From contig JALSNC010000282.1 of the NCBI GenBank assembly GCA_026987195.1, forward strand, positions 1 to 64,000: DNA of 64,000 nucleotides. The letters run 5' to 3'. A model generated the notes under the pieces. That model saw only the letters and a program-made list of their open reading frames with translations, did no database searches and was not told the origin of the DNA. How positions within the stretch are numbered: position 1 is the first letter of the stretch; the number at the start of each line of letters is the position of its first letter. Shown one piece after another: positions 826 through 24,920 of this stretch. A program made the position numbers and the translations under genes. This DNA is from Desulfobulbaceae bacterium (GTDB lineage: Bacteria; Desulfobacterota; Desulfobulbia; Desulfobulbales; Desulfobulbaceae).

Positions 826-829
826 GGGA

Positions 830-2713: not shown

Positions 2714-2731
2714 CGCAGTGGAAAGAGCCGG

Positions 2732-4243: not shown

Positions 4244-4278
4244 GGGTCAGTTGCCGGGCCTGGGAATGGATGCGGGTG

Positions 4279-5631: not shown

Positions 5632-5659
5632 GGGTAGCCTCCGCAAAGTAGTGACATCA

Positions 5660-6478: not shown

Positions 6479-6505
6479 ACTTTCTCCGCAGGGACATGAA
6501 ATAAT

Positions 6506-6535
6506 TTGACAGAGTAGGACCACTGTGATTAAAAT
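6506..6535 (+). promoter_or_regulatory. Sigma-70 type promoter for the rpmH operon
   Basis: A perfect -35 box TTGACA at 6506-6511 is followed after 18 bases by TAAAAT at 6530-6535. It sits in the only AT-rich stretch between the methyltransferase gene and rpmH and points towards rpmH, leaving a leader of about 185 bases. Confidence 0.6.
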
Positions 6536-6723
6536 ACAAAATTTTGATAAAGTAAACGGCCGGTGTCAACGACGGTCAGCCCATCCCGGTCAGATCCCGG
6601 CGCTGCAGTTTCTGTAATCGCTCACAGGCAGCGTGCGGGCACATCAGACAGAGTCCCCGGGAGGGCCCTACCATTCGGAGGGACCGCGGCACCTGTCCTC
6701 AAACCAGCAGAAGGAAGCAGATC

Positions 6724-6861
6724 ATGAGCAAGAGAACATTTCAGCCCAGCAATACCAAACGGAAGCGGACCCACGGTTTCAGGGTCAGGATGAGAACCCG
6801 TGCCGGCCAGGCGGTGATCAAACGGCGCCGCGCCCGGGGGCGCAGGCGGCTTGCTGTCTGA
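6724..6861 (+). CDS. rpmH: 50S ribosomal protein L34
   Basis: The 45-residue protein reads [20 protein letters not shown] and ends in the Arg-rich tail [12 protein letters not shown], a full match to L34 of the large ribosomal subunit. AAGGAAG precedes the ATG. It is the first gene of the conserved rpmH-rnpA-yidD-yidC-jag-mnmE order, and rnpA starts 5 bases after its stop. Confidence 0.97.
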
Positions 6862-6866
6862 TCCGG

Positions 6867-7217
6867 ATGAAGAGGTTCGGGCTTCCCAAGACCTGTCTGC
6901 TCAGGAAGACCGGGGAGTTTAACCGTGTCTACCGGCAGGGCCGCCGTCTGCACGGCAGGGGGTTCTCCCTGATTTACGTGGCCAACGACCTGCCGTGGAA
7001 CCGTCTGGGAATCAGTGTGCACAGAAAGACCGGCGGCGCTGTCCGCCGCAACAGGATCAAGCGGATCGTCCGCGAGACCTTCCGCCTGCACCGGGATATC
7101 TTTCCTCCGTCATCCGACATTGTCTGCACGGTGCGGCCTGATTTCGGCCCTGACAGCCCGGCGGCCATGCTGACCGCGGTGAGGCGGCTGCTGGAAGCCG
7201 GGGAGCGGCCGGCATAG
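6867..7217 (+). CDS. rnpA: Ribonuclease P protein component
   Basis: Basic protein subunit of RNase P that helps the catalytic RNA trim 5' leaders from tRNA precursors. The start at ATG 6867, 5 bases after rpmH, gives 116 aa beginning [20 protein letters not shown]. The RNase P signature is [14 protein letters not shown] near the middle. The frame is open upstream to 6633, but that extension runs through rpmH and is not real. The stop TAG shares a base with the GTG start of yidD, which suggests translational coupling. Confidence 0.96.
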
Positions 7218-7498
7218 TGGTGTCTCACTGCCGCAGGCATACCGCGCCACCTGGCGGACCGCGTCACCGGGCAGGAGTGTCTGCCCTGGCCGGCCGTCTG
7301 CTGGTGGTACTGTTCAGGGGCTATCAGTATCTTGTTTCACCGCTTTTTCCCGCCACCTGCCGCTACACCCCGACCTGTTCCCAGTACGCCATCGAGGCCG
7401 TGGCACGCTACGGTGCCATTCGGGGGCTGTATCTGGCCGTCCGCCGGATCCTGCGCTGCCATCCCTTTGCCCGCGGGGGCTATGATCCCGTGAAGTAG
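7217..7498 (+). CDS. yidD: Membrane protein insertion efficiency factor YidD
   Basis: Small membrane-associated protein that assists YidC-dependent insertion. The family core is [20 protein letters not shown] followed by CSQYAIEA and a C-terminal [14 protein letters not shown], all typical of YidD. The 93-aa frame starts at a GTG overlapping the rnpA stop; the first 25 or so residues are poorly conserved, so a later start is possible. The position between rnpA and yidC is the canonical one. Confidence 0.94.
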
Positions 7499-7597
7499 TC
7501 GTGTCTATAATCCAGTGACAGGCTGTTGTCCCGGTCGCCGCGAAACCGGCGCGTTGTCACTTTCCTGCGGACGGCAGCCTTTTTGAGGTAAATACCC

Positions 7598-9295: not shown

Positions 9296-9309
9296 CAAGG
9301 ACACATTAC

Positions 9310-10263
9310 ATGGCAAAAGGAAAAGATTTTTTTGGCAAGGATGTAACCGAAGCGATCCGGCAGGCCTGCAGGGAGCTGGCCATCCCCCAGGAGGAACTCG
9401 ACATCGAGGTCCTGGAGACCGGTTCTGCCGGGATTTTTGGCCTGTGCAGGAAAAAGGCCCATATCAGGGTGACCCCCAAGTCGAAGGCCGGTGAGGAGTC
9501 GGCCGACAAACCGGCACCCCGCCGCCGCGGCGGGTCGGGAGAGGGAAAAAAGGATTCACGGCAGAAGAAGGTGAAGCCGGCGAAGGAAAAGCCCGAGAAA
9601 ACCGCTCCCCCCGGGGCAAGGCAACAGGAACAGCCGCAGGCGGACACGGCCGGGGCGCAAAAGGAGCCTCCACCCGAAGAGAGTGCGCCGGCCGGCAGGC
9701 AGCAGGCCGAACCGGTTGCGGCCGAGGTCACCAGGGAACCTCCCTCGGCCGAGGTCCTGGAGATGATCCGGGCCGATCTCGAGGAGATGCTCTCGCTGAT
9801 GGGATATCCGTCCCGGGTGGCGGTGGAGGTGGAGGATCTCACGGTCCGCTGCCGGATCAGCGGTGAACACGAGGAGGTGATCATCGGCACCGACGGCCGG
9901 ACCCTGGACAGCCTCCAGTATCTGCTCCGCAAGATGATGAGCCGCCGCCTGCCCGACCGGGTGATGCTGACCCTTGATGCCGGCAACTTCCGGCAGCGGC
10001 GGGCCGAGGAGCTGAAAGAGCGGGCCCGGGACCTGGCCGGCCAGGTCCGGGAAGACGGCAAGACACGGGCCATCCCGGCGCTCAATCCCTCGGAGCGGCG
10101 TGTGGTCCACATGACGCTGCAGGAAGACAAGGGCATCCGTTCCCGGTCGGTGGGTGACGGCCTGTTCAAAAAGGTGCTGATCTACCGGCCCGGCAAGGAC
10201 AGGAAGTCAGGTTCCAGGAAACGCAGAGGCCGCCAGGGTGACCGTTCTTCATCGGGAAACTGA
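9310..10263 (+). CDS. jag: Jag/KhpB-type RNA-binding protein (Jag-N, KH, R3H)
   Basis: Cytoplasmic RNA-binding protein that follows yidC in many bacteria. I chose the ATG at 9310 (AAGGA upstream), giving about 317 aa that begin MAKGKDFFGKDVTEAIRQAC, a standard Jag-N domain. A Lys/Glu/Pro/Ala-rich linker of roughly 110 residues follows, then a KH domain with IIGTDGRTLDSLQYLLRKM (the GRTLD loop) and a C-terminal R3H domain with NPSERRVVHM. The linker is the variable part of the family. The 3' end overlaps mnmE by 26 bases. Confidence 0.94.
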   Translation: MAKGKDFFGKDVTEAIRQACRELAIPQEELDIEVLETGSAGIFGLCRKKAHIRVTPKSKAGEESADKPAPRRRGGSGEGKKDSRQKKVKPAKEKPEKTAPPGARQQEQPQADTAGAQKEPPPEESAPAGRQQAEPVAAEVTREPPSAEVLEMIRADLEEMLSLMGYPSRVAVEVEDLTVRCRISGEHEEVIIGTDGRTLDSLQYLLRKMMSRRLPDRVMLTLDAGNFRQRRAEELKERARDLAGQVREDGKTRAIPALNPSERRVVHMTLQEDKGIRSRSVGDGLFKKVLIYRPGKDRKSGSRKRRGRQGDRSSSGN

Positions 10264-11629
10264 GACCATCGCCGCCATCGCCACGGCCCCCGGCACCGGC
10301 GGTATCGGCATCATCCGCATCTCCGGGCCCCGGGCCCGCGCCATCCTTGACGCCATGTTCCGGCCCTTCCGGGCCGGTTCCGTCCCCGAAAGCCACAAGC
10401 TCCGTTACGGTACGGTCATCGACCGTACCGGCCGGGTCCTCGACGAGGTCCTGGCTGTCTACATGCAGGCGCCTGCCACCTATACCCGCGAGGACGTGGT
10501 GGAGCTGCACAGCCACGGTTCCTACCTGGTCCTGCAGGCCATCCTGGCCGAGGTACTGGCCCGTGGCGCCCGGCCGGCCGAACCCGGCGAGTTCACCAAG
10601 CGCGCCTTCCTCGCCGGCCGTATCGACCTGACCCGGGCCGAGGCGGTCATCGACCTGCTCCAGGCCCGGACCCGGGGTGGTGTCGATCTCGCCGTGGGCC
10701 AGTTGCAGGGCGGGCTCCAGGAACAGGTGGAGGTCGTGCGCCAGGGCCTGACCGATATCCTCGCCATCCTCGAGGTGGCCATCGATTTTCCCGACGAGGA
10801 CGTGGAGATTCTGGACAGCGGCCATCTCCTGGAGCGGCTGGAAAAGGATGTCGAGGCGCCCCTTGACCGGCTGCTTGCCCTGGCGGAGACGGGCAAGGTG
10901 ATCCGGGAAGGGATCAGCGTGGTTATTGCCGGCCGGCCCAACGTGGGCAAGTCCAGCCTGCTCAACGAGCTGCTCCAGGAGGAGCGGGCCCTGGTCACCG
11001 AGGTGCCGGGCACCACCCGCGACACCATCGAGGAGATGATCTCCATCCGCGGCATTCCGGTCCACCTTGTGGATACCGCCGGAATCCGGGCCCATGACGA
11101 CCTGGTCGAGGAACTGGGTATCGAGCGGGCCCGCCGCAAGCTGGACGAGGCCGATCTGGTTCTGTTCCTTGTCGACGCCGGGGCTGGTCTCACCGACCAG
11201 GACCGGGAACTGTACGGGTCCGTAGCCGGCCGCGACCATATCGTGGTGCTCAACAAGACCGACATCGCCTCTCCGGACCTGCTTGCCGGGCTCGAACAAT
11301 CGTTCCCCGGCACAGAGGTGGTCCGGATCTCCTGCCACCGGCACGAGGGGATCGAGGGGCTGCGGGAGGCCATGTTCCGCCGGATGCAGGGGGACGGCAC
11401 CCTGGAGGAGCGTCCAGCCTGCGCTCCCAACCTGCGCCACCGCCTGGTGCTTGAAAAAAGCCGTACCGCCTGCCGTCGTCTGCGCGAGGCCATGGCCGGG
11501 GGCGCACCCGCCGACCTGCTCGCCGTCGAGGTTCAGGCGGCCCTCGATCACCTGGGTGATATCGTCGGTATCACCACTCCCGAAGATGTGCTCGACGCCA
11601 TCTTCTCCAGGTTCTGCATCGGTAAATAA
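10238..11629 (+). CDS. mnmE: tRNA modification GTPase MnmE (TrmE)
   Basis: Potassium-activated GTPase partner of MnmG in wobble uridine modification. Order: folate-binding N-domain (TIAAIATAPGTGGIGIIRIS), helical domain, and an inserted G domain with P-loop GRPNVGKSSLLNELL, switch region TTRDTIEE, DTAGIR and NKTD. The protein ends in the essential C-terminal motif CIGK, whose cysteine is conserved. Length 463 aa is normal. The start GTG lies inside the 3' end of jag. Confidence 0.97.
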   Translation: MTVLHRETETIAAIATAPGTGGIGIIRISGPRARAILDAMFRPFRAGSVPESHKLRYGTVIDRTGRVLDEVLAVYMQAPATYTREDVVELHSHGSYLVLQAILAEVLARGARPAEPGEFTKRAFLAGRIDLTRAEAVIDLLQARTRGGVDLAVGQLQGGLQEQVEVVRQGLTDILAILEVAIDFPDEDVEILDSGHLLERLEKDVEAPLDRLLALAETGKVIREGISVVIAGRPNVGKSSLLNELLQEERALVTEVPGTTRDTIEEMISIRGIPVHLVDTAGIRAHDDLVEELGIERARRKLDEADLVLFLVDAGAGLTDQDRELYGSVAGRDHIVVLNKTDIASPDLLAGLEQSFPGTEVVRISCHRHEGIEGLREAMFRRMQGDGTLEERPACAPNLRHRLVLEKSRTACRRLREAMAGGAPADLLAVEVQAALDHLGDIVGITTPEDVLDAIFSRFCIGK

Positions 11630-11720
11630 TTCTGTCGGCCGGGTCCATGTTCCTGGAGCCCCTCTCCGGTCGACGGGCTGTCAGCGGTGTATTATGTTCA
11701 TACCGGAAGTTCACTGCCCC

Positions 11721-12926
11721 ATGGACGCGACACGATACATCGTGGCGGGAAGGCTCATTGACGGCAGTGGCGGCCAGGTCCGCCGCCGGGTCTTCCTGGC
11801 CGTCAGCGGCGGGATCATTACCGCCATCGCTCCGCTCTCCGCCCTTCCGACCCATGCCGCCCCCACGACCGTGACCGACCTCTCGCACTGTACCCTCCTG
11901 CCGGCGCTGGTGGACTGCAGTGTCAGCCTCTGTCGCTCTCCTTCCGTCGACCGGTCGCTGCGCACTGCCCTGGACCGGGCCGATGACGACGCCAGGCTGG
12001 CCATGCTGGAGCGGCATGTCCTCTACTGCCACTCCTACGGTGTGTTGGGGGTTGCTGATCATGATGATGACGCCGGCCTGGCGGCACGCTACAGGGCCGG
12101 GTCAGAGCGTGCCATCGAGATCCGGAGTTCCGGGACCCCGTGCAGGAGCCGGCAGGACTGTGACCGGGAACGTCCAGGAGAGCGGGAGTACCTCAGGGTC
12201 GTCCTGTCCGGCGACATCGGCGATGAGGATGATACCCTGCCGTTCCCTGACCGGGCCGAGCTGCAGCACATCCTGGCGCACCGGCGCGGCAGAACCGTGG
12301 TGGCCGTGGCCAATGGCCGGCGGCAGGTGGCCCTGGCCCTTGCCGCCGGCTGTGATGCCGTCGAACAGGGCTACCGCATGGGCGAAGCCAATCTCAGGGA
12401 GATGGCGCGGCGGCAGGTGGTCTGGATACCCTGTGCCATCCGGGCCAGGAACGGCCTGGACAGCGCCACCGGTGACGGTGGAGTGGCCTGCCGGTTTTCC
12501 CAGCGCTATATCTCGCCGGAAAAGGCGGCTCCCGGGGCGGAGGCCTTCTGGAAAGAGACGCTGGCCGACCAGTTGAGACAACTGGGCCTGGCCAGGAAAC
12601 TGGGAGTCAGGACAGCCGTGGGTACCGGCGCCGGCAGTGTCGGCATCCTTCATGGCGAGTCCATGGTCGAGGAGATGAAGCTGTTTCTCCGGGCCGGTTA
12701 TTCCCTGGAGGAGACCGTCCGCAGCGCCTCGGAACATGGGGCCCGTCTTTTCGGCATGGACAGTCTCGGCATGCTCGCCGCCGGCCGGCGGGCGACCTTC
12801 CTGGCCGTGCGCGGCACGGTCAGGCAACTGCCGCGAAAACTCTCCTACCTGGAGGGGATCTATATCAACGGTATGCCCAGTTCCCTCTATCACAAGGACC
12901 CGGCCGGGATCAGAACCACGCCCTGA
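11721..12926 (+). CDS. Amidohydrolase-superfamily protein lacking the metal ligands (probable pseudoenzyme)
   Basis: The 401-aa protein has the architecture of the imidazolonepropionase/prolidase branch of metal-dependent amidohydrolases: N-terminal beta-sandwich (IVAGRLIDGSGG), TIM-barrel, and C-terminal part with EETVRSASEHGARLFGMD and LGMLAAGRRATFLAV. Every expected ligand position is changed: the HXH after strand 1 is SVS (67-69), the bridging Lys position reads Arg159, the His of the AHA motif is Asn198, EHG is EQG (Gln216) and the catalytic TDAG is TGAG (Gly303). The rest is intact, so this looks like a maintained non-catalytic protein. The start could also be ATG 11694; neither has a clear ribosome site. 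Its 3' end overlaps convergent copB by 17 bases. Confidence 0.8.
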   Translation: MDATRYIVAGRLIDGSGGQVRRRVFLAVSGGIITAIAPLSALPTHAAPTTVTDLSHCTLLPALVDCSVSLCRSPSVDRSLRTALDRADDDARLAMLERHVLYCHSYGVLGVADHDDDAGLAARYRAGSERAIEIRSSGTPCRSRQDCDRERPGEREYLRVVLSGDIGDEDDTLPFPDRAELQHILAHRRGRTVVAVANGRRQVALALAAGCDAVEQGYRMGEANLREMARRQVVWIPCAIRARNGLDSATGDGGVACRFSQRYISPEKAAPGAEAFWKETLADQLRQLGLARKLGVRTAVGTGAGSVGILHGESMVEEMKLFLRAGYSLEETVRSASEHGARLFGMDSLGMLAAGRRATFLAVRGTVRQLPRKLSYLEGIYINGMPSSLYHKDPAGIRTTP

Positions 12927-13620
12927 TACCGGCAACAAACCGGAAGTCATCCACGTCCCGGTTTCCGGCCCGGGCCATGTCTGCCGTGTCACCGTAGAGG
13001 TGGACCCAGTTGATGCCGATATAGGGCGCGAATTCCCGCCTGATTTCGTACCGGAGGCGGAGACCGAGCTCAAGGTCAGAGAGTCCCGAGCCGGTACCCG
13101 TGTCAGGATCGTCCCTGCCGTACAGGTTCACCTCCAGGTCCGGGACCAGGATCAGGCGCTGGGTGAACAGGATCTCGTATTCCGCGGTAAGCCGTGCCGC
13201 GGTGCGGCCACGATCACCGAGAAACAGGGCCGCATCGATGTCGAAAAAATAGGGAGCCAGTCCCTTGACACCCATGGCCAGCCAGTTGCGGCCCGGTTCC
13301 GGGCGCAGGTCACCCCGCCATCCCACCTGCAGGTCCCAGTACGGCGCCACCGCCCGGCTGTAGAGCACCTGCAGTTCCGCCTCCTCGACCTCGCCATCCA
13401 GATAGTCACCGTCTGTCTTTATCCAGAGCTTGTTCAGGTCGTATCCCAGCCAGCCTTCAGCATCCCATGCCAGGGGATCGCTGCCGTCACCGGCCCGTAC
13501 CTCCATCTGGTCCACAAGGAGCCGGCCCAGGAGCGGGTCGTCGATCATGCCGCCTCCATACGCGGTGACGGATGGGAGCAGGCACAGGAGCAGCAGGGAC
13601 AGGTATCGTTTCATTCTCAT
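12910..13620 (-). CDS. copB: Copper resistance outer-membrane protein CopB
   Basis: The 236-aa protein has an N-terminal signal peptide (KRYLSLLLLCLLPSVTAYG) and the PcoB/CopB-type outer-membrane barrel, seen in WDAEGWLGYDLNKLWIKTDG, EVEEAELQVLYSRAVAPYWD and the C-terminal RRFxPYIGINWVHLYGDTAD type segment. PcoB family proteins act with the multicopper oxidase CopA in periplasmic copper tolerance. The Met/His-rich N-terminal extension of some CopB proteins is absent. The gene lies 4 bases after copA. Confidence 0.9.
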   Translation of the reverse strand: MRMKRYLSLLLLCLLPSVTAYGGGMIDDPLLGRLLVDQMEVRAGDGSDPLAWDAEGWLGYDLNKLWIKTDGDYLDGEVEEAELQVLYSRAVAPYWDLQVGWRGDLRPEPGRNWLAMGVKGLAPYFFDIDAALFLGDRGRTAARLTAEYEILFTQRLILVPDLEVNLYGRDDPDTGTGSGLSDLELGLRLRYEIRREFAPYIGINWVHLYGDTADMARAGNRDVDDFRFVAGIRAWF

Positions 13621-13624: not shown

Positions 13625-15445
13625 TCACCTCACCACGACTTTGCGGAACATGGCCAGCATGTGATAGAGCAGGTGGCAGTGGTAGGCCCACGGCCCCATG
13701 GCATCGGCAGTCACCAGGTAACTGATCTTTGCACCCGGCTGGACAATGACCGTGTGCTTACGCGGGATACGGCGGCCATCACCGGTCTCCAGGTCACTCC
13801 ACATGCCGTGCAGGTGCATGGGATGGTTCATCATGGTGTCGTTGACAAAGGTGATGCGGAGACGTTCGCCATACCTGAAACGCAGGGGCTCGGCATCCGC
13901 GTACCTGATCCCGTTGATCGACCACATGTAGCGGGACATGTTGCCGGTCAGGTGAAGCTGGATTTCACGCCCCGGGTCGCGCGGATCAGGGGTGGGGTAG
14001 AGATTACGCAGATCCGCGTAGGTCAGCACCCGGCGGCCGTTGTTTCGCAGGCCCACGCCGGGGTCATCGAGCCGGTAGCGCGGGTGCATGGCCCGCATGT
14101 CGACCTGTGGCCCGAATTCCGTTGCCACGTGCACCACCGGCGCATCGCTTCCTGTTCCGGCTGGCCCCCGAGCCGTCCTTTCCCGGGCCGTCCCGTCCCG
14201 GGAAGACGTCATTGTGTCCATTCGCCCCATGGCTTGCTGCGTATGGGGCATGGCCCGGCCGCCATCCTTCCCGGTTGTCCCGGCCATGTCCATGCCCATG
14301 TCGGTCATGGTCAGGATCGGATAGGGATCATAGTCAGGAACGTCTGCCGTCAGGGCCGGATCCGGGGTGAGCGTACCCCGTGCGTGGCCTGACCGGTCGA
14401 TGGCCTGGGCAAAGATACAGTAGGCGCGGTCATCCCTGGGGGTGACAATGACATCATAGGTCTCGGCAACACCGATCCTGAATTCATCCACGGTAACCGG
14501 TTCGATGTTCTGGCCGTCCGCCGCCACGACAGTCATCTTCAGCCCGGGGATGCGGACATCAAAAAAGCTCATGGCCGAGCCGTTGATCACCCGCAGGCGC
14601 ACCCTTTCCCCACGTCTGAACAGGCCGGTCCAGCCGGCAGCGGGTGTCCGGCCGTTCATGAGATATGTATAGGTATAGCCGGTCACGTCGGAAAGGTCCC
14701 GGTCGCTCATGCGCATCATGTTCCACATGCGCCGGTCATTCCAGGTGTTCACCAGGCCTTTTGTGCGGAGGTCGTTGATCAGGTCACCCAGGGTACGTTC
14801 GTTGAAGTTGTAGTAATCGCTCATTTTCTTGAGCTTGGCGTACAGGTCGTCGGGATCTTCATCCGTCCAGTCCGAAAGCATGACAACGTGTTCCCGGTCC
14901 CAGGCAAAGGGGTCGGGCTCCAGGGGCTCGACGATGAGGGGGCCATAAAGGCCGGTCTGCTCCTGGAACCCGGAATGGCTGTGATACCAGTAGGTGCCAC
15001 TCTGGCGGACATCGAACTGGTAGTGGAAGGTTTCGCCGGGTGCAATACCGTCAAAGCTGATATCCGGTACCCCGTCCATGGTGGCAGGCAGAATGATGCC
15101 GTGCCAGTGGATCGAGGCAGACTCGGCAAGACGGTTGGTGACCTTGAGGCTTACCCTGTCCCCCTCCCGCCATCGCAGGACCGGTCCGGGAACCGAGCCG
15201 TTGACAGCCGTTGCCCAGCGTATTTTTCCCGTGAAGTTGACCTGCTGCGGCGCAATGGTGAGATGAAAATTCCTGCCGCGCAGGACAGGAATCCGGTCTT
15301 GTTCCGCGGCCCCGGCAGCGGCTGTTCTGCGGGGCAGCACGCCCAGGCCGAGCAGAATGCCGCCAGCCGCTATTCCCTTGACAAAACGGCGTCGGTCCAT
15401 GGACGGCAGGCCGTCAAGATGCAGGAGAAGCTTTTCGATATCCAT
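13625..15445 (-). CDS. copA: Copper resistance multicopper oxidase CopA (PcoA type), Tat-exported
   Basis: Periplasmic copper oxidase/sequestration protein of 606 aa. The N-terminus carries a twin-arginine signal (DRRRFVKG, residues 17-24) followed by a hydrophobic stretch and an Ala-rich cleavage region. The four copper-binding motifs are present: HWHG (113-116), HSHSG (155-159), HPMHLHG near 555 and HCHLLYHM near the C-terminus, so type 1, 2 and 3 copper sites look complete. A Met/His-rich segment with TMTDMGMDMAG and following Met residues resembles the copper-collecting region of PcoA/CopA. It forms an operon with copB and may belong functionally to the metal cluster upstream. Confidence 0.95.
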   Translation of the reverse strand: MDIEKLLLHLDGLPSMDRRRFVKGIAAGGILLGLGVLPRRTAAAGAAEQDRIPVLRGRNFHLTIAPQQVNFTGKIRWATAVNGSVPGPVLRWREGDRVSLKVTNRLAESASIHWHGIILPATMDGVPDISFDGIAPGETFHYQFDVRQSGTYWYHSHSGFQEQTGLYGPLIVEPLEPDPFAWDREHVVMLSDWTDEDPDDLYAKLKKMSDYYNFNERTLGDLINDLRTKGLVNTWNDRRMWNMMRMSDRDLSDVTGYTYTYLMNGRTPAAGWTGLFRRGERVRLRVINGSAMSFFDVRIPGLKMTVVAADGQNIEPVTVDEFRIGVAETYDVIVTPRDDRAYCIFAQAIDRSGHARGTLTPDPALTADVPDYDPYPILTMTDMGMDMAGTTGKDGGRAMPHTQQAMGRMDTMTSSRDGTARERTARGPAGTGSDAPVVHVATEFGPQVDMRAMHPRYRLDDPGVGLRNNGRRVLTYADLRNLYPTPDPRDPGREIQLHLTGNMSRYMWSINGIRYADAEPLRFRYGERLRITFVNDTMMNHPMHLHGMWSDLETGDGRRIPRKHTVIVQPGAKISYLVTADAMGPWAYHCHLLYHMLAMFRKVVVR

Positions 15446-15634: not shown

Positions 15635-16639
15635 TCAGCTCTCGCCGCCTGTGAGCATGTAGCGGAGGTAGGGGAAGGAGGCCAGGGCCGTAAAGACAAG
15701 AAGGAGAAACAGGGAGATCTTGAGCGCTGCCGTGCGGTATATGGCGATGGGGCCTGCCAGACCTGGACGGTGGCGGAAGGGTTCGACCAGGACAGGAGTG
15801 ATGCCGAAGAAGGTGGCCGGGATCAGGGTGCCGTAGAGGAGAAAGCCGATAAAGTGGTACTGCGGCTTGAGGATGCAGAACGGGCACTTGTGAAAGGGCA
15901 TGTTGTAGATGTAGGAGGAAAAGACCGTGATGATCGCCACCATGGCCAGGCCGAAAAACCAGCACCAGCCGAGGCTGTAGGCAATGGCGGCGGTGATGCG
16001 CCGGCGGCGGAGGAGGAAGACGGCCAGGCCGGCCAGGAGAAGGACCGTGGCGTAGAAGAGCTGCAGGACCGGAACCTGTGGCGCGCGCAGGAGCAGGGGG
16101 CCGCCGCCGCTGGAGGAATCAAAGACCACGGCGCAGCAGGAGGTGATGATGTCGGGCCTGAGGCCGGCAAGGTAGGACATCTGCAGGCCGATATCCAGGG
16201 CCAGGAAGGGCAGGAGCAGGAGGAGGTAGATGTACTTGACGCGGACAAGGGGGTAGTGTTCGGAACGGATGTCAAGCTGATGGAGCAGGAGCCAGAAGCC
16301 GTAGAGAAAGACGCCTGCCAGTTTGATGAGCAGGGTGGGCATGCCCCGCGGATCGGCCAGCAGGGCGCCGGTGGCGCACATGGCACCGGGGATGGAGCCG
16401 GCAAAATGGTCGGCTGCCAGGACAAAGACCACCAGGGAGATGATCTGCACGCCCAGGCCGTACTCCACCAGGGTGGACGTCAGCCAGATCTCGTTTTCCA
16501 GCCGGATCTGGCGGTTGTCGTCGCTGGCCGGGTTCCAGAACCGCAGGACCCGCAGCGCGCTCCGGCCGGCAAATACCATCAGGAAGGCCACCACCGTGCT
16601 GCAGACGATCAGCGCCAGGCTCCAGACGTCAAGCAGCAT
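15635..16639 (-). CDS. Polytopic membrane protein with paired cysteines, metal/redox cluster
   Basis: About 334 aa with roughly nine hydrophobic segments. Cysteines cluster at or near membrane boundaries: GAMCATGAL, IITSCCAVVF, GWCWFFG and the CXXC in KCPFCILKPQYHFIGF. Such pairs suggest thiol redox chemistry or metal binding at the membrane surface, but I do not recognise a named family. The ATG at 16639 overlaps the end of the ABC ATPase gene by 11 bases, so it is translationally coupled to the transporter and very likely part of the same machine. The frame extends to 16675, but that start would lie deeper in the ATPase gene. Confidence 0.8.
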   Translation of the reverse strand: MLLDVWSLALIVCSTVVAFLMVFAGRSALRVLRFWNPASDDNRQIRLENEIWLTSTLVEYGLGVQIISLVVFVLAADHFAGSIPGAMCATGALLADPRGMPTLLIKLAGVFLYGFWLLLHQLDIRSEHYPLVRVKYIYLLLLLPFLALDIGLQMSYLAGLRPDIITSCCAVVFDSSSGGGPLLLRAPQVPVLQLFYATVLLLAGLAVFLLRRRRITAAIAYSLGWCWFFGLAMVAIITVFSSYIYNMPFHKCPFCILKPQYHFIGFLLYGTLIPATFFGITPVLVEPFRHRPGLAGPIAIYRTAALKISLFLLLVFTALASFPYLRYMLTGGES

Positions 16640-17306
16640 GGATACGTCCGTCCCGGATATCGATGATCCGCTCAATGGCCGGGTGTTCCGTGACCAGGGG
16701 ATCGTGGGAGGTGATGACGATGGTCTTGCCGGCGGCCCGGAGTTCGGCCATCAGGTCCATGAAGACATGGCTCAGCCGGGAGTCCAGATGGGCGGTGGGC
16801 TCATCGGCCAGGATTATGGGCGGGTCATTGATCAGGGCGCGGGCAATGGCCACCCGCTGCAGTTCACCGCCCGAGACCTGGGCGGCCCGGAAATTCTCGC
16901 GGTGGATGATCCCGAACCGCTCCATCAGCTCGCGGGCCCGGGCCCTGCGATCGGCCGGGCCCACGCCGAGCGGCAGCAGGGGCAGGGTGATGTTGTCAAG
17001 GACAGTGAGCTCCGGCAGCAGGTTGAAGCGCTGGAAGATGAAGCCGATGGTGCGGCGCCGATGCAGGGTCAGGAACCGGTCCGGCAGCCGGGACAGCTTG
17101 CGGCCGGCAATGGCGGCCCTGCCACTGGTGGGCGGAAAGATACAGCCGATAATGGAAAGCAGGGTGGATTTGCCCGAACCCGATGCGCCCCGCAGGCAGA
17201 CCATGGTCTCGGCCCCGATCCGCAGGTCGATGGCATCCAGGGCCCTGACCTCGTTGGGCCTGCCCTGGTTGTAGATCTTGGTCACTGATTCGAGTTCGAT
17301 CAGCAT
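16629..17306 (-). CDS. ABC transporter ATPase, MacB/LolD type
   Basis: The 225-aa ATPase subunit has Walker A GASGSGKSTLL, signature SGGELQRVAIARAL, Walker B IILADEPTAHLD and a switch His in TSHDP. This subfamily works with FtsX/MacB-fold permeases that use mechanotransmission on the periplasmic side rather than moving substrate through the membrane. Its partner permease ends 20 bases upstream, and its 3' end overlaps the Cys-rich membrane protein gene. The insert common in the Met/ABC importers is absent. Confidence 0.93.
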   Translation of the reverse strand: MLIELESVTKIYNQGRPNEVRALDAIDLRIGAETMVCLRGASGSGKSTLLSIIGCIFPPTSGRAAIAGRKLSRLPDRFLTLHRRRTIGFIFQRFNLLPELTVLDNITLPLLPLGVGPADRRARARELMERFGIIHRENFRAAQVSGGELQRVAIARALINDPPIILADEPTAHLDSRLSHVFMDLMAELRAAGKTIVITSHDPLVTEHPAIERIIDIRDGRIHAA

Positions 17307-17326: not shown

Positions 17327-18520
17327 TCAGGCGCCGCTGAGGGCGGAGTCGGCAGGCACGCTCGCCGTGTGCCAGGCCGGGATGACGGTGGCGGCCAGAT
17401 AGGGCAGAACGGAGAGGCAGAAGATGAGGAGAACGACCTGCGCCGTCATCTCCGGGACCAGGTGAAAGGGCGGGAAGATGACCGACCAGCCCACCATGAT
17501 CGGCCGGAACAGGGCCGCGTCGAAGAAGGCGACATGGATGAAGGCCAGGGTGACGCCGACGAGGAAGGAGATGCCGGAGACCAGCAGGCTTTCCCAGAAG
17601 CGGACCGCGAGGATGTCCGCGGTCTGCCAGCCCAGGACCTTGAGGATCGCGATCTCCCGTTTCTCCTCCTGTGACAGGCCCGATGCCTTGTCCCAGGCCA
17701 GGATGATAAAGGCGGTCAGGGCGGTGAGCAGGCAGATGGAGCCGAACCCGCTCCGCCAGCCGAAGACGACCCGGTAGGTCTTGAGGATCTGCGGCCTGGT
17801 GACCACCCTGGTGTCGGGGAGCAGGTCGGCGATCTTCCTGGCAATGGTGTTGATCTCGTTGGGGTTGGTCACATAGACGCAGAGATCGGTGGCCCGGTCA
17901 CCTCTGATACGGAAGAGATCGCGGGCGTCGTCGATGTTCATGACCACCAGGTCGCGGGTCAGGATATCGGTGGCATCGGCGAAGACGCCGCTGATCTCGA
18001 ACGAGGCCATGCTCAGGTCGTTCCGGAACAGGGAGAGCAGGTGGCTGCCCCGGGCCTGCACCATGTCGTTCACGGCCCGGCCAAGCACCACGCTGCCCCG
18101 GCTGCCCGGCCCCGGGAAGCTGCCGCTGGCCAGGGCAAGGTGCAGCTGGTCGCCCATGGGCATCCGGTCGGTGGCAAGGCCCATGACCGTGAGGTTGGCG
18201 CCCGTGACCTCATCAAAGTAGTAGCCCCAGACCCTGGGGACGATGCGGCTGATGCCGTAGATGGAGGACAGCCTGGCGGCATATTCCGGCGGGATATCCA
18301 CCTGCCGCCCGGCAGACATGCGCTGCAGGGTGATCTGGGGAGCATTCTCCAGCACGCGCTCCGCGGTCCGGGTCAGGGCGCCGGTGGTCATCTGGAAGGA
18401 GGCGACCAGGAAGATGACCGCGGTGAAGACCAGCAGGACGCTGAGGTTCTTCATCCGTCGTCGCCAGAGCGAGGAGAGCGCATAGTCGAGGACGTTGATC
18501 TGTCGGGCCAGGATCTGCAT
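17327..18520 (-). CDS. ABC transporter permease, FtsX/MacB fold
   Basis: The 397-aa protein has one N-terminal membrane helix (about residues 24-45), a large periplasmic domain and three C-terminal helices, the FtsX-like topology. The cytoplasmic coupling segment LSQEEKREIAILKVLGWQTADILAVRFWES is the family signature (normally ..[14 protein letters not shown]..). It is paired with the ATPase at 16629. The periplasmic domain is of MacB-PCD type; the substrate cannot be read from sequence. It differs clearly from the second permease at 22293, so the cluster has two distinct transporters. Confidence 0.92.
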   Translation of the reverse strand: MQILARQINVLDYALSSLWRRRMKNLSVLLVFTAVIFLVASFQMTTGALTRTAERVLENAPQITLQRMSAGRQVDIPPEYAARLSSIYGISRIVPRVWGYYFDEVTGANLTVMGLATDRMPMGDQLHLALASGSFPGPGSRGSVVLGRAVNDMVQARGSHLLSLFRNDLSMASFEISGVFADATDILTRDLVVMNIDDARDLFRIRGDRATDLCVYVTNPNEINTIARKIADLLPDTRVVTRPQILKTYRVVFGWRSGFGSICLLTALTAFIILAWDKASGLSQEEKREIAILKVLGWQTADILAVRFWESLLVSGISFLVGVTLAFIHVAFFDAALFRPIMVGWSVIFPPFHLVPEMTAQVVLLIFCLSVLPYLAATVIPAWHTASVPADSALSGA

Positions 18521-18551: not shown

Positions 18552-18839
18552 TCAGAGCCGGGAGCGGGGCGGCGCCCAGAAGGAGCCGGTGGGAAAGTGG
18601 TCCATGGCGCCGGGGTGGTCCATGAAGGGCGCCACCAGGTCGGTCACGGCCGGGTGCCTGGTGTAGCGGGCCTCGGTGGCGAGGCAGAGATCGGTCAGGC
18701 CGAGGCCGGAGACGGCAATGGCCTGCAGGCGCGCCGCCTGCTCCTGCCGGGCCCGACGCTGTGCGGCGGACAGGATGAGCCCGGCGTCGATGGCCCCCAG
18801 GATCGCCAGCAGGAGCAGGAGGATATGGGATGGCCGCAT
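18552..18839 (-). CDS. Small membrane-anchored protein in the metal cluster
   Basis: A 95-aa protein with an N-terminal hydrophobic anchor (HILLLLLAILGAIDAGLIL) and a short periplasmic part with several Arg and two His residues near the end (RHPAVTDLV, HPGAMDHFPTG). I do not recognise a family. It lies 4 bases after the NosL-like gene and 31 bases before the permease gene, so it belongs to the same transcript. Possible roles are an assembly factor or small transporter subunit; this is inference from position only. Confidence 0.65.
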   Translation of the reverse strand: MRPSHILLLLLAILGAIDAGLILSAAQRRARQEQAARLQAIAVSGLGLTDLCLATEARYTRHPAVTDLVAPFMDHPGAMDHFPTGSFWAPPRSRL

Positions 18840-18843: not shown

Positions 18844-19371
18844 TCAGTTCTGCATCTTCATGTTCATCTTCATCATCTTCATGCCCGAGCGCATGGACTG
18901 GATCAGGGCGTCGGTGAGCTGGTCAAAGGCGAGGATCTGCCTGCCCTTGTGGTCCTTGAGGAAGCTTTCGGCCGCCTTCCGCCCGGTAAAGGGAATCAGC
19001 TCCTTGCCCATGGGGCCCATGACGTCGGAACCGATGACGTAATAGGCCTTGCGTCCGTCGATCCACTGCATGGTGTAATAGTCCCTGACCTGGATATCCT
19101 TTATCTGGTCCCGGCCCGGGCCGCCATATTTTTCCGGTGAAAAATAGAAGGCCATCATGTCCTTGACACCGTCAAAGTATTTTTCCGTGCCGTCGGCAAA
19201 GCGGATACCGGTGAGCCAGTTCCTGTACTTGGCGACAAACATGCCGCACACGGCACAGCGGCTCTGCGGGGTCACGGTCTCATCCGGTGTCGAGGCCCGG
19301 ACCGGGCTGACGGTGAGGGCCAGCAGCAGGAAGGTGGCTAACAGGGTGTTTCTGATCAGGCTGATGGTCAT
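18844..19371 (-). CDS. NosL-family copper-binding protein with Met-rich tail
   Basis: NosL proteins bind Cu(I) in the periplasm and deliver it to nitrous oxide reductase. The 175-aa protein starts at the ATG at 19371 (AAGGAGG 5-6 bases upstream), has a Sec signal peptide (cleavage likely after VRA, residue 26), the NosL core CAVCGMFV (Cys39, Cys42) followed by WLTGIRFADGTEKYFDG, and DVMGPMGKELIPF. The last 17 residues contain seven Met alternating with Lys, a tail that could bind Cu(I). In other lineages NosL has a lipobox; here the signal peptide lacks one. No nosZ is in the window, so another protein must be the client. Confidence 0.88.
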   Translation of the reverse strand: MTISLIRNTLLATFLLLALTVSPVRASTPDETVTPQSRCAVCGMFVAKYRNWLTGIRFADGTEKYFDGVKDMMAFYFSPEKYGGPGRDQIKDIQVRDYYTMQWIDGRKAYYVIGSDVMGPMGKELIPFTGRKAAESFLKDHKGRQILAFDQLTDALIQSMRSGMKMMKMNMKMQN

Positions 19372-19434: not shown

Positions 19435-19959
19435 TTATTGTCCCCGGGTATCGGGCAGAAAGGGGGCGAGCAGGCGGTTCAGCTCGGCCGCACTGATGCC
19501 GCCGAGGATGGCGCCGATGATTGTACCCTGCGGGTTGATCACCACGGTGAGCGGCAGGGACTTGACGTTGTAGCGGCCCGCGATCTTTGCTCCCTCGTCC
19601 CTGACCACGGGGAATCGGATATCAAGATCACGGACGAAACGGCGGATGTCGGCATCGGGTACACCAAGGGTCTCGACATAGACAACCTTGAGGCCCGCAT
19701 CACGGTACCGGCTGTACAGGTCATTGAGCACCGGGGTATCGGCCTTGCAGAACTTGCAGTCGATGAGGAAGAAGCGGACAATGGCCGGATGACCGGCGAA
19801 CTCGGTGCTGGAGACGGTCCTGCCGTTCATGTCGGTCACCGTGAAGGCCGGGGCCGGATCGCCCACCTTGAGCGGTGGCGCGGTCTCACGGGAACAGCCG
19901 ATGAGCAGGCAGAGGAGCAGGAACAGGCAGGTGCGGGGCAGGAGACGGCGACCGGGCAT
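19435..19959 (-). CDS. TlpA/ResA-like thioredoxin lipoprotein
   Basis: Membrane-anchored periplasmic thiol-disulfide protein of 174 aa. The ATG at 19959 has GGGAGG upstream. The signal ends in lipobox LLIGC (Cys22), followed by the AhpC/TSA-Redoxin core GDPAPAFTVTDMNGRTVSS. The active site is IDCKFCKAD (Cys68, Cys71), with a CXXC of unusual sequence in place of WCXPC; the missing Trp may shift its redox potential. The cis-Pro region is KSLPLTVVINPQGTIIG. Between the NosL-like gene and an ABC ATPase, it likely keeps cysteines reduced for metal loading or haem attachment. Confidence 0.88.
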   Translation of the reverse strand: MPGRRLLPRTCLFLLLCLLIGCSRETAPPLKVGDPAPAFTVTDMNGRTVSSTEFAGHPAIVRFFLIDCKFCKADTPVLNDLYSRYRDAGLKVVYVETLGVPDADIRRFVRDLDIRFPVVRDEGAKIAGRYNVKSLPLTVVINPQGTIIGAILGGISAAELNRLLAPFLPDTRGQ

Positions 19960-19969: not shown

Positions 19970-20665
19970 CTACGCCGCCCGGGTCCGGGCCGGGTTCTCC
20001 TCGCTGAGGACGCCCTTGCGCATGTGCAGGATCCGGGGACTCTCCTGCGAATCGGCCAGGTGCACGTTATGGGTGACGACGACAAAGGTGGTGCCCTGGC
20101 GGTGGTACTCGTGGAAGACGGCAAGGATCTCCTGTTCCGTGTCCTCGTCGAGGTCGCCGGTGGGCTCGTCGGCAAGGATGATGGCCGGCTGGTTGATGAA
20201 GGCTCGGGCAATGGCGATCCGCCGCTGCTGGCCGCCGGAGAGCTGGGCCGGGAAGGCGTTTTCCCGGTCCTTCAGCCCGACCTGGGCCAGGATGTCGCGG
20301 GCCTGCCTGCTGCTGGCGGCCTTCCGGTTGCCGAAACTCAGGGGCAGGAGGATGTTTTCCAGGGCCGTCAGGGTGGGGATGAGGCTTGCGAACTGGAAGA
20401 TGAAGCCGATGGTCTGGTTGCGCATCTCGGTCAGGCGGGCGTCGCTCTGGTGCCAGTTTTCGATGCCGTTGACCAGGACCTCGCCCGAATCCGGCGTTGT
20501 CAGGCCGCCGATCATGGACAGCAGCGTCGTCTTGCCCGAGCCGGAATGGCCGAGGATGATGGCAAAGTCGCCGGCGGCGATGGAGAGGTTCACATCGTCC
20601 ACCGCCGTGACCGCCTGGCCGTCGGCGACATAGGTTTTCTTCAGGTTGCGGCATTCAATTATCAC
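19970..20665 (-). CDS. Second ABC transporter ATPase, MacB/LolD type
   Basis: About 231 aa from the GTG at 20665 (AGGAA 6 bases upstream); the frame is open to 20725, but that part is not conserved and overlaps an operator-like palindrome. Walker A is GHSGSGKTTLL, signature LSGGQQRRIAIARAF, Walker B IILADEPTGDLD, H-loop THNVH. Its partner is most likely the FtsX-type permease at 22293 on the other strand, since the permease at 17327 already has an adjacent ATPase. The divergent layout places the two halves under a shared control region. Confidence 0.9.
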   Translation of the reverse strand: MIIECRNLKKTYVADGQAVTAVDDVNLSIAAGDFAIILGHSGSGKTTLLSMIGGLTTPDSGEVLVNGIENWHQSDARLTEMRNQTIGFIFQFASLIPTLTALENILLPLSFGNRKAASSRQARDILAQVGLKDRENAFPAQLSGGQQRRIAIARAFINQPAIILADEPTGDLDEDTEQEILAVFHEYHRQGTTFVVVTHNVHLADSQESPRILHMRKGVLSEENPARTRAA

Positions 20666-20719
20666 GGTGTGTTCCTGTTTCTTTTGGCAGACAGTGATTT
20701 TTTTTTCTTGCCTCCATGC

Positions 20720-20731
20720 TACCACGTGGTA
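20720..20731. promoter_or_regulatory. Operator-like palindrome 1 (TACCACGTGGTA)
   Basis: A perfect 12-base palindrome, 55 bases upstream of the ATPase start codon. Its half-site TACCAC resembles the half-site TACTAC of the second palindrome 83 bases away. A wider pair GCTAC-N13-GTAGC surrounds it. It is a plausible repressor site; the binding protein is not in the window. Confidence 0.5.
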
Positions 20732-20802
20732 TATAGTAGCTCCACTGCCGTATCAGGCCATTTTCAGTATCACGATGTCCTTTTTTCTTTTCCCGGTTTT
20801 TG

Positions 20803-20817
20803 TACTACGAGGTAGTA
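20803..20817. promoter_or_regulatory. Operator-like palindrome 2 (TACTAC-GAG-GTAGTA)
   Basis: A perfect inverted repeat of 6-base arms around a 3-base spacer, running into TATAAAG, which may be part of a -10 region. TACTAC...GTAGTA resembles the operator arms bound by the BlaI/MecI/CopY winged-helix family, whose CopY members respond to copper. That match is a resemblance, not proof. Confidence 0.5.
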
Positions 20818-21003
20818 TAAAGATCAAGATCTTTTGAAAAACATCTTTTTTCGGGAGGTTCAGGCAGAAGAGATCCGCTATCCAGTATCCGGTTTCGTCC
20901 GTTCGGGTTTTCCAGAGTTTCCCGGCGGATGAAAATTGTCGAGGCCTGCTGCGGGGTGTGGCCGGCCGGCGCAATACCATGGAAATCAGCAAAGGAGGAG
21001 AAC

Positions 21004-22176
21004 ATGACAGTGTCGAAAAAGACATGGTTCACAGCTATTCTTGCCGCAGGAGCCCTGACCTGGGGGCTGGCCGGGGGAGCCGCCCCGGTGCAGGCAGCAG
21101 ACAAGTACGATGCGACCTTATATATCGCCGCCATGGGTGGACATTTCGCCAAGGCCGATGTGACCATCGTTCCCGGTGACGAGGCACCCATCAAGCTCAA
21201 CAAGCTCACCAAGATCGACATCGGTGACGAGGAAACCCATCCCACCCACGATGCCCGCATCGACAACAACAACCGCAAGCGGATGTTCTGGTCCACCTAT
21301 CATATCGATCCCAACACCAAGATGACCCATGTCGGCGTGAGTGATCTCACCACCGGCGAGGTGTTGAAGGATATCAATGTCTCCATTCCCAAGGAGGCGA
21401 CCAAGACGCACCACATGTACTGCGCCTCGGCCCAGACCAAGGATTACTACATCCCGATCAGCATGGCCAACAAGGGCTACATCGACGTCTTCCGCAAGTC
21501 CGACCTCAAACTGGTGCAGCGGATTTTCCTGGAAGGCACCGAGGCTGACATCAAGGCGCCCTACCTCTTCTATCACGGCACCAACTCGCCGGACATGAAG
21601 AAGATCCTCATCACCATCAACGAGGCCGAGACGCCCCAGGGCAAGCCCATCGGCAAGATGCACCTGTTCATGCTGGATGCCGACGCCCTGGTGCATGGCA
21701 AGGTCAAGGTCCTGGCCAAGGGCATCGCCCCCGGCGCTCCGGGCAAGACCATGAGCTTTCGCCAGTACTTTTCACCGGACGGCAAGTACATCGCCAACTC
21801 CGGCGCCGACCGGATGTACCTGATCGATGCCAACACCCTCAAGGTCCTCGACTCGGAGATGATGGGCAAGCTGGAAGAGAACCACGACGCGATCTTTACC
21901 CCGGATTCCAAGTACATCATCGCCACCTCCAGGACCAAGACCCTGACCGATGGCAACTACAAGAAGATCTCTTACAAGACGCCCTTCTGCAGCGAAGAGA
22001 TCGCCGACAAGGAACTGGGCCCGGACGACTACATGATGGACGGCCAGGTCAAGCTCTACGACGTGGCTGCCAGGAAGTTCATCGGCAAGGCCACCTCGAC
22101 CTGCACACCCTGTCATAAGGCTGAGGAGGTTGACCAGCACGCTGTTCTCTGTGGTATCGATGCAAACTGGAAGTAA
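21004..22176 (+). CDS. Secreted His-rich beta-propeller protein with C-terminal CXXCH haem motif
   Basis: A 390-aa periplasmic or exported protein. The ATG at 21004 has a near-perfect AAAGGAGG. A Sec signal is cleaved near VQAA (residue 31). The body has repeated beta-propeller strands ([34 protein letters not shown]). A CTPCH motif at 367-371 suggests one covalent c-type haem, 19 residues from the C-terminus. Histidines are frequent and paired: HPTH, THHMY, MTHVG, YHGTN, ENHDA. The HH and [10 protein letters not shown] contexts recall the propeller His ligands of nitrous oxide reductase, but the cupredoxin domain and CuA motif of NosZ are absent. It is transcribed divergently from the NosL/TlpA/ABC genes and is the likely client of that machinery (inference). 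Confidence 0.82.
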
Positions 22177-22292: not shown

Positions 22293-23486
22293 ATGTCACG
22301 GGAAGGTGTTTCTTCGATTTTCGCGGTGGCCTGGAAGACGGTCATCCGCAAGCTGTTTCGCAATTCGGTGCTGGTGCTGGCCGTTGCCCTCCTGGTTGCC
22401 CTGCTCGTCTTTGCCTTTCTTTTCAACGATATGGTCCAGGAGAACCTGGAGGCTGCCTCAAAGAAACTCGGGGCCGATATCGTCCTGGTGCCGGCCGAGG
22501 CCATGGGTATGGCCGAGGAGTTTATCCTCGAATCCAGTGAAAAGACGTTCTACATGGACAGGTCTATCCTCGATTCCGTCCGCGCGATGCCGGAGATCGA
22601 CAAGGTGACGTTCCAGGTATATCTCAGGACCCTGGAGTCGGGATGCTGCTCCATCGTTGCCGGCCAGGTGGTGGCCATCGACCCGGCAACGGATTTTGTC
22701 GTCAGGCCCTGGCTGCCTGCCTCGGTACCGGAACTGGGCCAGGGTGAGGCCTACGTGGGCAACTATGTCTGGGAATACCTCGGGCTTATCTCCACCGCCA
22801 CCCTGTTCGGCCATCCCATCAAGGTGGTCGGGCACCTGGAGAAAACAGGTACCGGCCTCGATCACGGCATCTTCATGCGCTATGCCGACCTCTCCCAGGT
22901 GACCGAGACGGCAGCAGGAAGCTATTCCAAGGACAAGATCTCCATCGTGTTCATCAAGGTGAAGGACGGTGTCAACGTGGAGGACCTGACCAGGAAGATC
23001 CAGTCGGAGAACCCCACCGTGGGTATCATGACCAGCGGGACCATCGGCACGGACATCCGGGCCACGCTGAAGGATATTCTGCGGGTCTTTTCGGTCACCA
23101 TCCTGGTCTCCTCGCTGCTGGCCATTCTCCTGGCCTGGTCCACCTTTTCGGCCATCACCAACGAGCGCAGGCGGGAGATCGGTATTCTGCGCGCCATCGG
23201 CGCCAGGCGTTCCCACATCATCCGGATGTTCATGGCCGAGGCCGCCATTATCTCTGGCATGGGCGGTATCCTGGGGATTCTGGGCGGCCAGTTCCTCATC
23301 ACCTATACTGCCGGCGACTTTGACCTTCTCAACCGGCTCGGCGTTACCACGGGCATCACCACCACCGGTGTCCTGTTCAGCCTGCTGGCCATGGCGGCCG
23401 GCGTGCTGGTCTGCCTGCTCGGCGCTCTGGTGCCCATCGTCCGCCTGGCCAGGATGGAACCGCTGCTCGCCATCAAGGAAGAATAG
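22293..23486 (+). CDS. Second FtsX/MacB-type ABC permease
   Basis: About 397 aa from the ATG at 22293 (the frame extends upstream to 22194 through the terminator, so the later start is favoured). Topology: one N-terminal helix ([21 protein letters not shown]), a periplasmic domain with a CC pair ([11 protein letters not shown]), then three helices. The coupling helix [30 protein letters not shown] is the family hallmark. Similar permeases bring lipoproteins, peptides or haem-related substrates out of the inner membrane, or act as mechanical drivers. The likely ATPase partner is at 19970. Confidence 0.9.
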
Positions 23487-23525: not shown

Positions 23526-24920
23526 TCAGGAGTCGGCCGGCAGGATCCGGTCAAGGGCAAAATACAGGGTCGCCCGGGTTCCTGCACCGGGGTCAGACGC
23601 AAGGTGCAGGCCCCCGCCGTAGCGTTCTCCCACCGACCTGGCCAGGAAGAGGCCAAGGCCCATGCCCTGGCCCGGTTTCTTGGTGCTGAAGAACGGTTCT
23701 GTTGCCCGGGCCAGGGTCTTTTCGTCCATGCCGATACCGCTGTCCTCGACCAGGAAGGCCAGGTGATGCGCTTCCCGGAAACAGGTCAGACGCACTTCCC
23801 TGTCACCGCCCGCATCCAGGGCATTTTTTACCAGGCTGCTGAGAGCCCGTTTCATGGTCCTCGGCGGTGCCTGGATCACCATGGCGCCCACCTTGTTGAC
23901 GATCCGCAACCGGTCCGACGGGAAATCCTGTTCCAGTTCGTCCAGCAGCCCGGGCAGCCGGATGATGGCCGGCTGTTCGCCCATTGGCTGACCGGCATCG
24001 GCGGTCATGTGGTACAGGATCTCCTTGCAGATCTCCACCTGCTGCCGGATCAGTCTGGCATCCTGGACCAGTTCGTCGTCGCCGTGGTGCAGGAGTGTGC
24101 GGTACATCTCGCCCGCGACAACGGCGATCAGGGAAAGCGGCGTGGAGAGCTCATGGGCCGCACCCGCCGACAGGGTGGCCAGGGAGGCCAGACGTTCGCT
24201 GCGGTTCTTCTCGTCCCTGAGCGAGGCCACGGTCTCCTGGTAACGGTTGAGGGACTGCTGGATCTTGCTGACAAAAAAGACAATGAAGACAGCGGTGAGG
24301 GCAAAGGCCAGCAGCATCCCCTGGAGGTGGATCTGCATCCTGGCCGGCGCCGTGGCCGTGGGGGCGTGACAGAGAGGAACCGGGGCGGGCCGGCCGAGAG
24401 GAAAGGGGGCAGCACCTGTCTGGTCGGGGAGCTGGAACAGGGCGGCATAGCAGGAAACCGTGAACAGGAGCAGGAGCCAGGCCATCTTCGGTCGCAGGAT
24501 GATGGACGCGATGACGATGTGGACCAGGTAGAGCGAGGTGAAGGGGTTCATGGGGCCGCCGGTGTAGAAGAGCAGCAGCGTCAGGAGCAGGACATCCATG
24601 AACATGCCGGCAATGAGCATACGATCGAGCCACTTCTTCTTTTTCTTGAACGCGGCAAAGACCAGGTTGCTCACTGCCTGGAAGACAATGATGGCGGAGA
24701 TGATCAGGAAAGGCAGCTCGATCCGGAAAAGAAAATAGATGGCCGTGATCAGCAGCAGCTGGCAGACCACCGCGCCCCAGCGCAGCAGGAGGAGCCAGCT
24801 GAAGGCGATATCCGTGGTTTTCCGCCTGTCGGCACCGCCTGGCGCTGTCCCGGGCAGGGTGCCGCGGTCCATGGGGGGGGAGAACATCGCAATGGCAGGA
24901 AGTTCATGGAAATGCGACAA
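23526..24920 (-). CDS. RegB/PrrB-like membrane redox sensor histidine kinase
   Basis: A 464-aa kinase with six N-terminal membrane helices. The loop GGPMNPF (121-127) matches the quinone-binding GGXXNPF motif of RegB. The phosphoacceptor H-box is AGAAHELSTPLSLI (His256), and Cys298 in VEICKEIL sits where the redox-active cysteine of RegB lies. The ATPase domain has LVKNALDAG, VEDSGIGMD and GMGLGLFLARS. No RegA-like response regulator is adjacent, so it is an orphan in this window. It is convergent with the metal-cluster permease; a regulatory link is possible but unproven. The start is uncertain (TTG 24920, or Met codons 12 or 17). Confidence 0.9.
   Translation of the reverse strand: MSHFHELPAIAMFSPPMDRGTLPGTAPGGADRRKTTDIAFSWLLLLRWGAVVCQLLLITAIYFLFRIELPFLIISAIIVFQAVSNLVFAAFKKKKKWLDRMLIAGMFMDVLLLTLLLFYTGGPMNPFTSLYLVHIVIASIILRPKMAWLLLLFTVSCYAALFQLPDQTGAAPFPLGRPAPVPLCHAPTATAPARMQIHLQGMLLAFALTAVFIVFFVSKIQQSLNRYQETVASLRDEKNRSERLASLATLSAGAAHELSTPLSLIAVVAGEMYRTLLHHGDDELVQDARLIRQQVEICKEILYHMTADAGQPMGEQPAIIRLPGLLDELEQDFPSDRLRIVNKVGAMVIQAPPRTMKRALSSLVKNALDAGGDREVRLTCFREAHHLAFLVEDSGIGMDEKTLARATEPFFSTKKPGQGMGLGLFLARSVGERYGGGLHLASDPGAGTRATLYFALDRILPADS

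Follow-up and report, generated by a model that had tools for sequence, protein, structure and literature searches.

What does a secreted beta-propeller with many histidines, a terminal haem motif, and a NosL-like neighbour do, and is it, in particular, a copper protein of the kind represented by nitrous oxide reductase (NosZ)? The question is raised by a gene in a stretch of 64,000 nucleotides from a Desulfobulbaceae bacterium (assembly GCA_026987195.1, contig JALSNC010000282.1), hereafter the window. The gene belongs to a divergent cluster, in which the propeller and permA point in one direction, and ATPaseB, a lipoprotein thioredoxin, NosL, sm95, permB, ATPaseA, and mem346 point in the other. 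The features are as follows:

13625–15445, minus strand: CopA-type copper-resistance multicopper oxidase (TIGR01480, 882 bits; cut-off 479)
15635–16639, minus strand: mem346, polytopic membrane protein of no known family, with invariant MC, SCC, and HxCPFC motifs
16629–17306, minus strand: ATPaseA, second MacB/LolD-like ABC ATPase, assigned by sequence match and conserved place in the cluster
17327–18520, minus strand: permB, second FtsX-type ABC permease (PF02687, 5e-08)
18552–18839, minus strand: sm95, small membrane-anchored protein of no known family, with a near-invariant C-terminal segment
18844–19371, minus strand: NosL-family protein (PF05573, 1e-31), with CxxCGM and a second invariant Met
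19435–19959, minus strand: ResA/TlpA-like thioredoxin lipoprotein, with conserved CKFC motif and lipobox Cys
19970–20725, minus strand: ATPaseB, LolD-like ABC ATPase (LolD, 9e-66, under the curated cut-off)
20726–21003, no strand: divergent intergenic region between the two operons, defined by gene order, with equal layout in at least 24 loci
21004–22176, plus strand: secreted seven-bladed beta-propeller ORF, with invariant His47, His82, His191, His294, Cys140, Cys383, and CxxCH (367–371), and with His79 and His109 conserved at more than 95%
22293–23486, plus strand: permA, FtsX/MacB-type ABC permease (PF02687, 8e-21)
23526–24920, minus strand: histidine kinase beside permA (PF02518, 1.5e-18)

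The preliminary description had placed the propeller gene correctly, in frame and coordinates: the ATG at 21004 follows AGGAGG, a good ribosome-binding site, the stop codon occupies 22174–22176, and the product has 390 residues. The protein carries a Sec-type signal ending ...APVQA-ADKY, in agreement with the secretion proposed for it, and contains every motif that had been listed, including CTPCH near the C-terminus, the His of which (His371) lies 19 residues from the end. The propeller is covered by no Pfam or NCBIfam family, the top matches being generic propeller repeats below threshold, and PDB sequences matched it only as WD40 repeats. A cupredoxin (CuA) domain, already thought to be absent, gave no match; the chain terminates in the haem motif and, after it, the last central strand. 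When whole genomes were searched in translation, relatives turned up in 80 of the 258 genomes of the order Desulfobulbales (one further match, in G468, is a repeat match only and was left out of the 80). Outside the order, the propeller occurs mainly in G318, with a fragment in G369; the named relatives are Desulfobulbaceae and Deltaproteobacteria MAGs, and viral and plasmid collections yielded no relatives. The propeller family is real, conserved, and without existing annotation.

Conservation was scored over an alignment of 48 propeller homologues, down to 34% identity. His47, His82, His191, His294, Cys140, Cys383, and the CxxCH motif (residues 367–371) are invariant in all 48 sequences, and His79 (98%) and His109 (96%) are nearly so. 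The paired histidines had been put forward as a set; the alignment retains HPTH (His79 and His82), MTH (His109), YHG (His191), ENHDA (His294), and CTPCH, adds His47 of MGGH, which the earlier list lacked, leaves MHLF in between (His220, 65%), and removes TYH (His100, 27%), VHG (His231, 15%), and the THHMY pair (His136, 15%; His137, 25%). Six histidines are accordingly conserved among homologues. Invariant positions are enriched among His (5 of 13 in the mature protein, hypergeometric p 0.01) and among Cys (4 of 5, p 0.0007), with p values that are indicative only, the sequences being related.

The propeller tree does not simply track host families, and it separates a minimal clade (support 97/91), the Desulfurivibrio alkaliphilus type, from the clade with the full gene cluster. 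One genome of the set, G195, is what we take to be the D. alkaliphilus AHT2 chromosome; its propeller gene lies at about 509,787–510,911. Every member of the full-cluster clade has His379, whereas the minimal clade has Lys, Ser, Thr, or Asn at this position and also lacks His220; the association of His379 with cluster type represents one change on the tree and is weak as a correlation. Three genomes encode double-length lipoprotein propellers of 760–800 residues (L062:7647-10034, L063:7282-9642, and L064:2467-4740), having propeller parts repeated in tandem or permuted and most core residues kept; in L062 and L063, two permA-type permeases lie downstream. In a 1.7 Mb genome, the propeller gene (L069 / G218:C2:35018-35911) is interrupted by a TGA and a frame change, which probably reflect either gene decay or faulty assembly.

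AlphaFold models (pTM 0.62 and 0.52, from alignments of 4 and 1 sequences) have a generic propeller shape and are too weak to place a site. Foldseek searches with these models returned generic propeller matches, with thiocyanate dehydrogenase (TcDH; e.g. 8q9y) among many others; models and matches, weak as they are, support the beta-propeller fold that had been assigned. In our reading of the blades from the sequence, His82, Cys140, His191, Arg253, His294, and, in one clade, His379 appear to be equivalent residues of consecutive blades, each the first on its innermost strand, and the last strand, HAVLCGID, would close blade 7 together with N-terminal strands. In copper-propeller enzymes, the metals are held at that first innermost-strand position.

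For this protein, the haem motif stands on firmer ground than copper. The CxxCH motif is present in 48 of 48 sequences of a protein exported with a Sec-type signal, as expected of a c-type cytochrome, and the terminal haem motif recognised at the outset, CTPCH, is invariant. Two distant members (L011:1258-2451 and L061:1493-2644) contain a second CxxCH between the first CxxCH and the final LCG, an arrangement that, as in dihaem cytochromes, fits haem binding by the propeller. We infer that the propeller carries a covalent haem c.

The nine-gene divergent cluster is found in at least 24 loci, and some loci end at contig ends. Where the flank is long enough, permA is almost always the neighbour of the propeller. 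The conserved Cys119-Cys120 pair of permA (numbering from GTT at 22290) was considered as a copper mark and set aside as not specific, being common to Treponema and Fusobacterium relatives in other contexts. sm95, which was matched by no Pfam or NCBIfam model, has about 40 C-terminal residues that are near-invariant across families (LCxATEARYTRHP...PFMDHP...EHFPTGSFW). The minimal clade keeps the propeller, permA, ATPaseB, and often the thioredoxin, with the NosL module not adjacent to the propeller. CopA adjoins mem346 in this genome, a placement that does not imply constancy across loci. Relatives of the histidine kinase lie near the cluster in several other genomes (about 290–400 bits in L077, L078, L079, L081, L082, and L083; 757–766 bits in L001 and L002), and the edge of such a locus often holds a second NosL fragment.

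The NosL gene noted in the partner operon belongs to the family by its PF05573 match, and is the sole NosL found in its genome. Two features described for NosL, CxM and a second conserved Met, are present in it (PMC6530538); its only conserved cysteines are Cys57 and Cys60, with no conserved N-terminal lipobox Cys. NosL is present in 134 of the 258 genomes of the order, specifically in 76 of the 80 genomes with the propeller versus 58 of the 178 without it (p 4e-23, overstated since the genomes are related); G088 and G415 have the propeller and no NosL match anywhere in the genome. NosZ gave no match in the source genome and was found in none of the 146 genomes of the order that were searched, where only cupredoxin-like stretches matched. 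The association of the propeller with NosL and copper genes is real and widespread (at least 24 loci; 76 of 80 genomes).

We lean, with little better than even confidence, towards a periplasmic copper–haem c redox protein of a new family, with predicted metal, haem, and activity. This reading preserves from the original copper–haem proposal the central-strand histidines, the haem motif, the absence of CuA, and the NosL/copper link, and abandons the HH pair and a sequence relation to classic NosZ. Counting against it are the minimal clade, in which the NosL module is not adjacent and His379 and His220 are missing, the two propeller genomes without NosL, and the module itself, which mostly occurs without the propeller.

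Part of this counter-evidence favours a haem c propeller whose invariant His and Cys hold a cofactor other than copper (iron, zinc, nickel, or, as cytochrome cd1 does, a second haem), with the copper genes as mere neighbours. The minimal clade manages with no NosL module linked to the propeller, the haem motif is surer than copper, and the generic Foldseek matches include the haem propellers NirN (6rtd) and cytochrome cd1 (1e2r). However, the NosL linkage recurs in its 24 or more loci over several families, with co-occurrence in 76 of 80 genomes, and no gene for haem d1 turned up in the stretches that were read; we judge another cofactor to be unlikely, although deserving of real weight.

The distribution of the NosL module bears on what the module does. 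mem346 occurs in 60 of 395 Desulfobacterota genomes, usually with NosL, sm95, permB, and ATPaseA; the propeller occurs in about 10. In one locus (L143, on G230:C6, positions 751–13167), NosL, sm95, ATPaseA, and mem346 share one strand with genuine NosZ (TIGR04246, 799 bits) and NosD (TIGR04247, 383 bits); the nosZ operon, comprising NosZ, NosD, ABC parts, thioredoxin, and NosL, runs straight into sm95, ATPaseA, and mem346, which may be overlooked nos accessory genes. The same locus contains, on the minus strand, a NosL-family ORF that also has CxxCH and a weak cytochrome c match (L143:4627-5409; PF13442, E 0.003), a possible NosL–cytochrome fusion. Elsewhere, the NosL module lies beside CusA/CzcA-family RND genes (L130, L136, and L144 confirmed; L134 and L137 by inspection). 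The nosZ operon and the CusA/CzcA-family neighbours support copper handling by the NosL module, and the same facts show that it is not dedicated to the propeller; it may serve general copper homeostasis.

Another candidate is a propeller that binds, senses, or traffics periplasmic copper without being an enzyme, the cluster being a copper-resistance island, as the adjoining CopA, the CusA/CzcA-family genes beside the NosL module elsewhere, and the nearby histidine kinase would suggest. Yet a haem c motif and strictly conserved central residues would be unusual for a copper store, and the occurrence of the NosL module beside Cus genes without the propeller makes the propeller an added, specific part; a purely homeostatic role seems to us distinctly unlikely.

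A nitrous oxide reductase of a new class, in which haem c replaces CuA, was assessed by direct comparison with NosZ. The NosZ models TIGR04244, TIGR04246, and NF052460 gave no match to the propeller of the window, and NF052460 was reached by only 2 of 41 propeller members, at E 0.025. Direct homology to classic NosZ was rejected, since two NosZ sequences, one from S. meliloti and one from the Desulfobacterota, gave an hhalign probability of 0.6%; the NosZ-like sequence pattern perceived earlier thus corresponds to no detectable sequence relation with classic NosZ. The HH pair, which had been read as a NosZ-like mark, is ruled out as such by its low conservation in the alignment. Set against the seven CuZ histidines of NosZ, the propeller offers four invariant and two more than 95% conserved histidines, His379 in one clade, and an HH pair at 15% and 25%, with models too weak for geometry. 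With four clade III L-NosZ sequences, hhalign aligned one pair of blades (5–6) of the propeller family (70%, E 4e-5), with His294 matched to the latter His of the HH motif (VHHI) in L-NosZ. This similarity of blades around a putative CuZ His, the presence of NosL in the cluster, and the accessory module in a nosZ operon are what a new N2O reductase would have in its favour. Against it, the propeller cluster contains no nosD and no nosF or nosY of the usual type, its ABC parts being of the FtsX/LolD type, and the HH pair is not conserved, the CuA domain is absent, and no NosZ family model matches; we consider such an enzyme highly improbable. Propellers commonly serve as scaffolds, and a structural or binding propeller without redox function, with CxxCH as a disulfide or zinc motif, is a further candidate. 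However, CxxCH, Cys140, Cys383, and the histidine set stay invariant in sequences that otherwise diverge to 34% identity, and two members have an extra CxxCH; we hold this assignment to be very improbable.

For the favoured copper–haem c protein, we propose the following mechanism. At the upper end of its central channel, the seven-bladed propeller would hold a metal, most probably copper, with His47, His82, His191, and His294, probably His79 and His109, and perhaps Cys140 as ligands. A single c-type haem, attached just ahead of the last central strand, would relay electrons between this metal and a cytochrome outside the protein. Cu(I) would reach the propeller through NosL, the lipoprotein thioredoxin would keep the cysteines of the apoprotein reduced, and the two FtsX-type ABC machines, sm95, and mem346 would act in copper loading or maturation, as NosDFY does for NosZ. 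By analogy, the substrate is most likely a small sulfur or nitrogen compound, as favoured by the precedents (thiocyanate and N2O) and by the sulfur-cycling hosts. More tentatively, and with rather more doubt than belief, we suggest that the family stands next to NosZ and TcDH as an additional class of copper-cluster propeller enzyme, having a mixed His/Cys copper site wired to a haem c on the same chain, loaded by the NosL module and two FtsX-type ABC machines, and catalysing a periplasmic sulfur or nitrogen step in Desulfobulbales.

If the copper–haem c reading is true, it adds an unannotated redox family to an order whose members include disproportionators of sulfur and nitrate-dependent oxidisers of sulfide, Desulfurivibrio among them, and offers a possible role for NosL genes in genomes without NosZ (NosL in 134 of 258 genomes; NosZ in 0 of 146 searched). 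The shared accessory module (sm95, mem346, and the FtsX-type ABC), recurring in a nosZ operon, bears on copper-cluster assembly in propellers. In D. alkaliphilus, the first step of sulfide oxidation has been described as unresolved (PMC5516251). Terms for the propeller are absent from the main text of that paper and of two other Desulfurivibrio papers (PMC12142623 and PMC12545173), and from the main text of papers on conduction and sulfur oxidation in cable bacteria (PMC11976967 and PMC13047784).

Among known systems, YncE/YVTN and WD40 propellers and the hydrazine synthase beta subunit share weak blade-repeat similarity with the propeller but have no full-length match and no model that covers its His/Cys/CxxCH set. 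The NosL-family protein (18844–19371) resembles NosL (PF05573) in family match, CxM, and second Met, and differs in having no conserved N-terminal lipobox Cys and in residing in a genome without NosZ. TcDH, a periplasmic propeller of seven blades, carries three coppers within its central tunnel and hands electrons on to cytochrome c (PMC9456337), and its loci have been reported to contain two ABC permeases, two ABC ATPases, two hypothetical proteins, a two-component system, and copCD (PMC5328954). The gene list of Thioalkalivibrio TcDH resembles the propeller cluster, the parts being compared by description only; TcDH bears a Tat signal, and its cytochrome is a separate protein, whereas the propeller here has a Sec signal and its own haem motif, and a profile of 41 propeller members searched against all PDB chains, at E up to 1, matched no TcDH chain. 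NosZ (clades I–III) is like the propeller in fold, in conserved His placed, by our reading of the blades, at the starts of central strands, in NosL within the cluster, and in the accessory module of a nosZ operon; unlike NosZ, the propeller has no CuA, no conserved HH pair, no family match, and FtsX-type ABC transporters instead of nosDFY. By the tests run, the propeller belongs to neither system, yet it may work like TcDH or NosZ.
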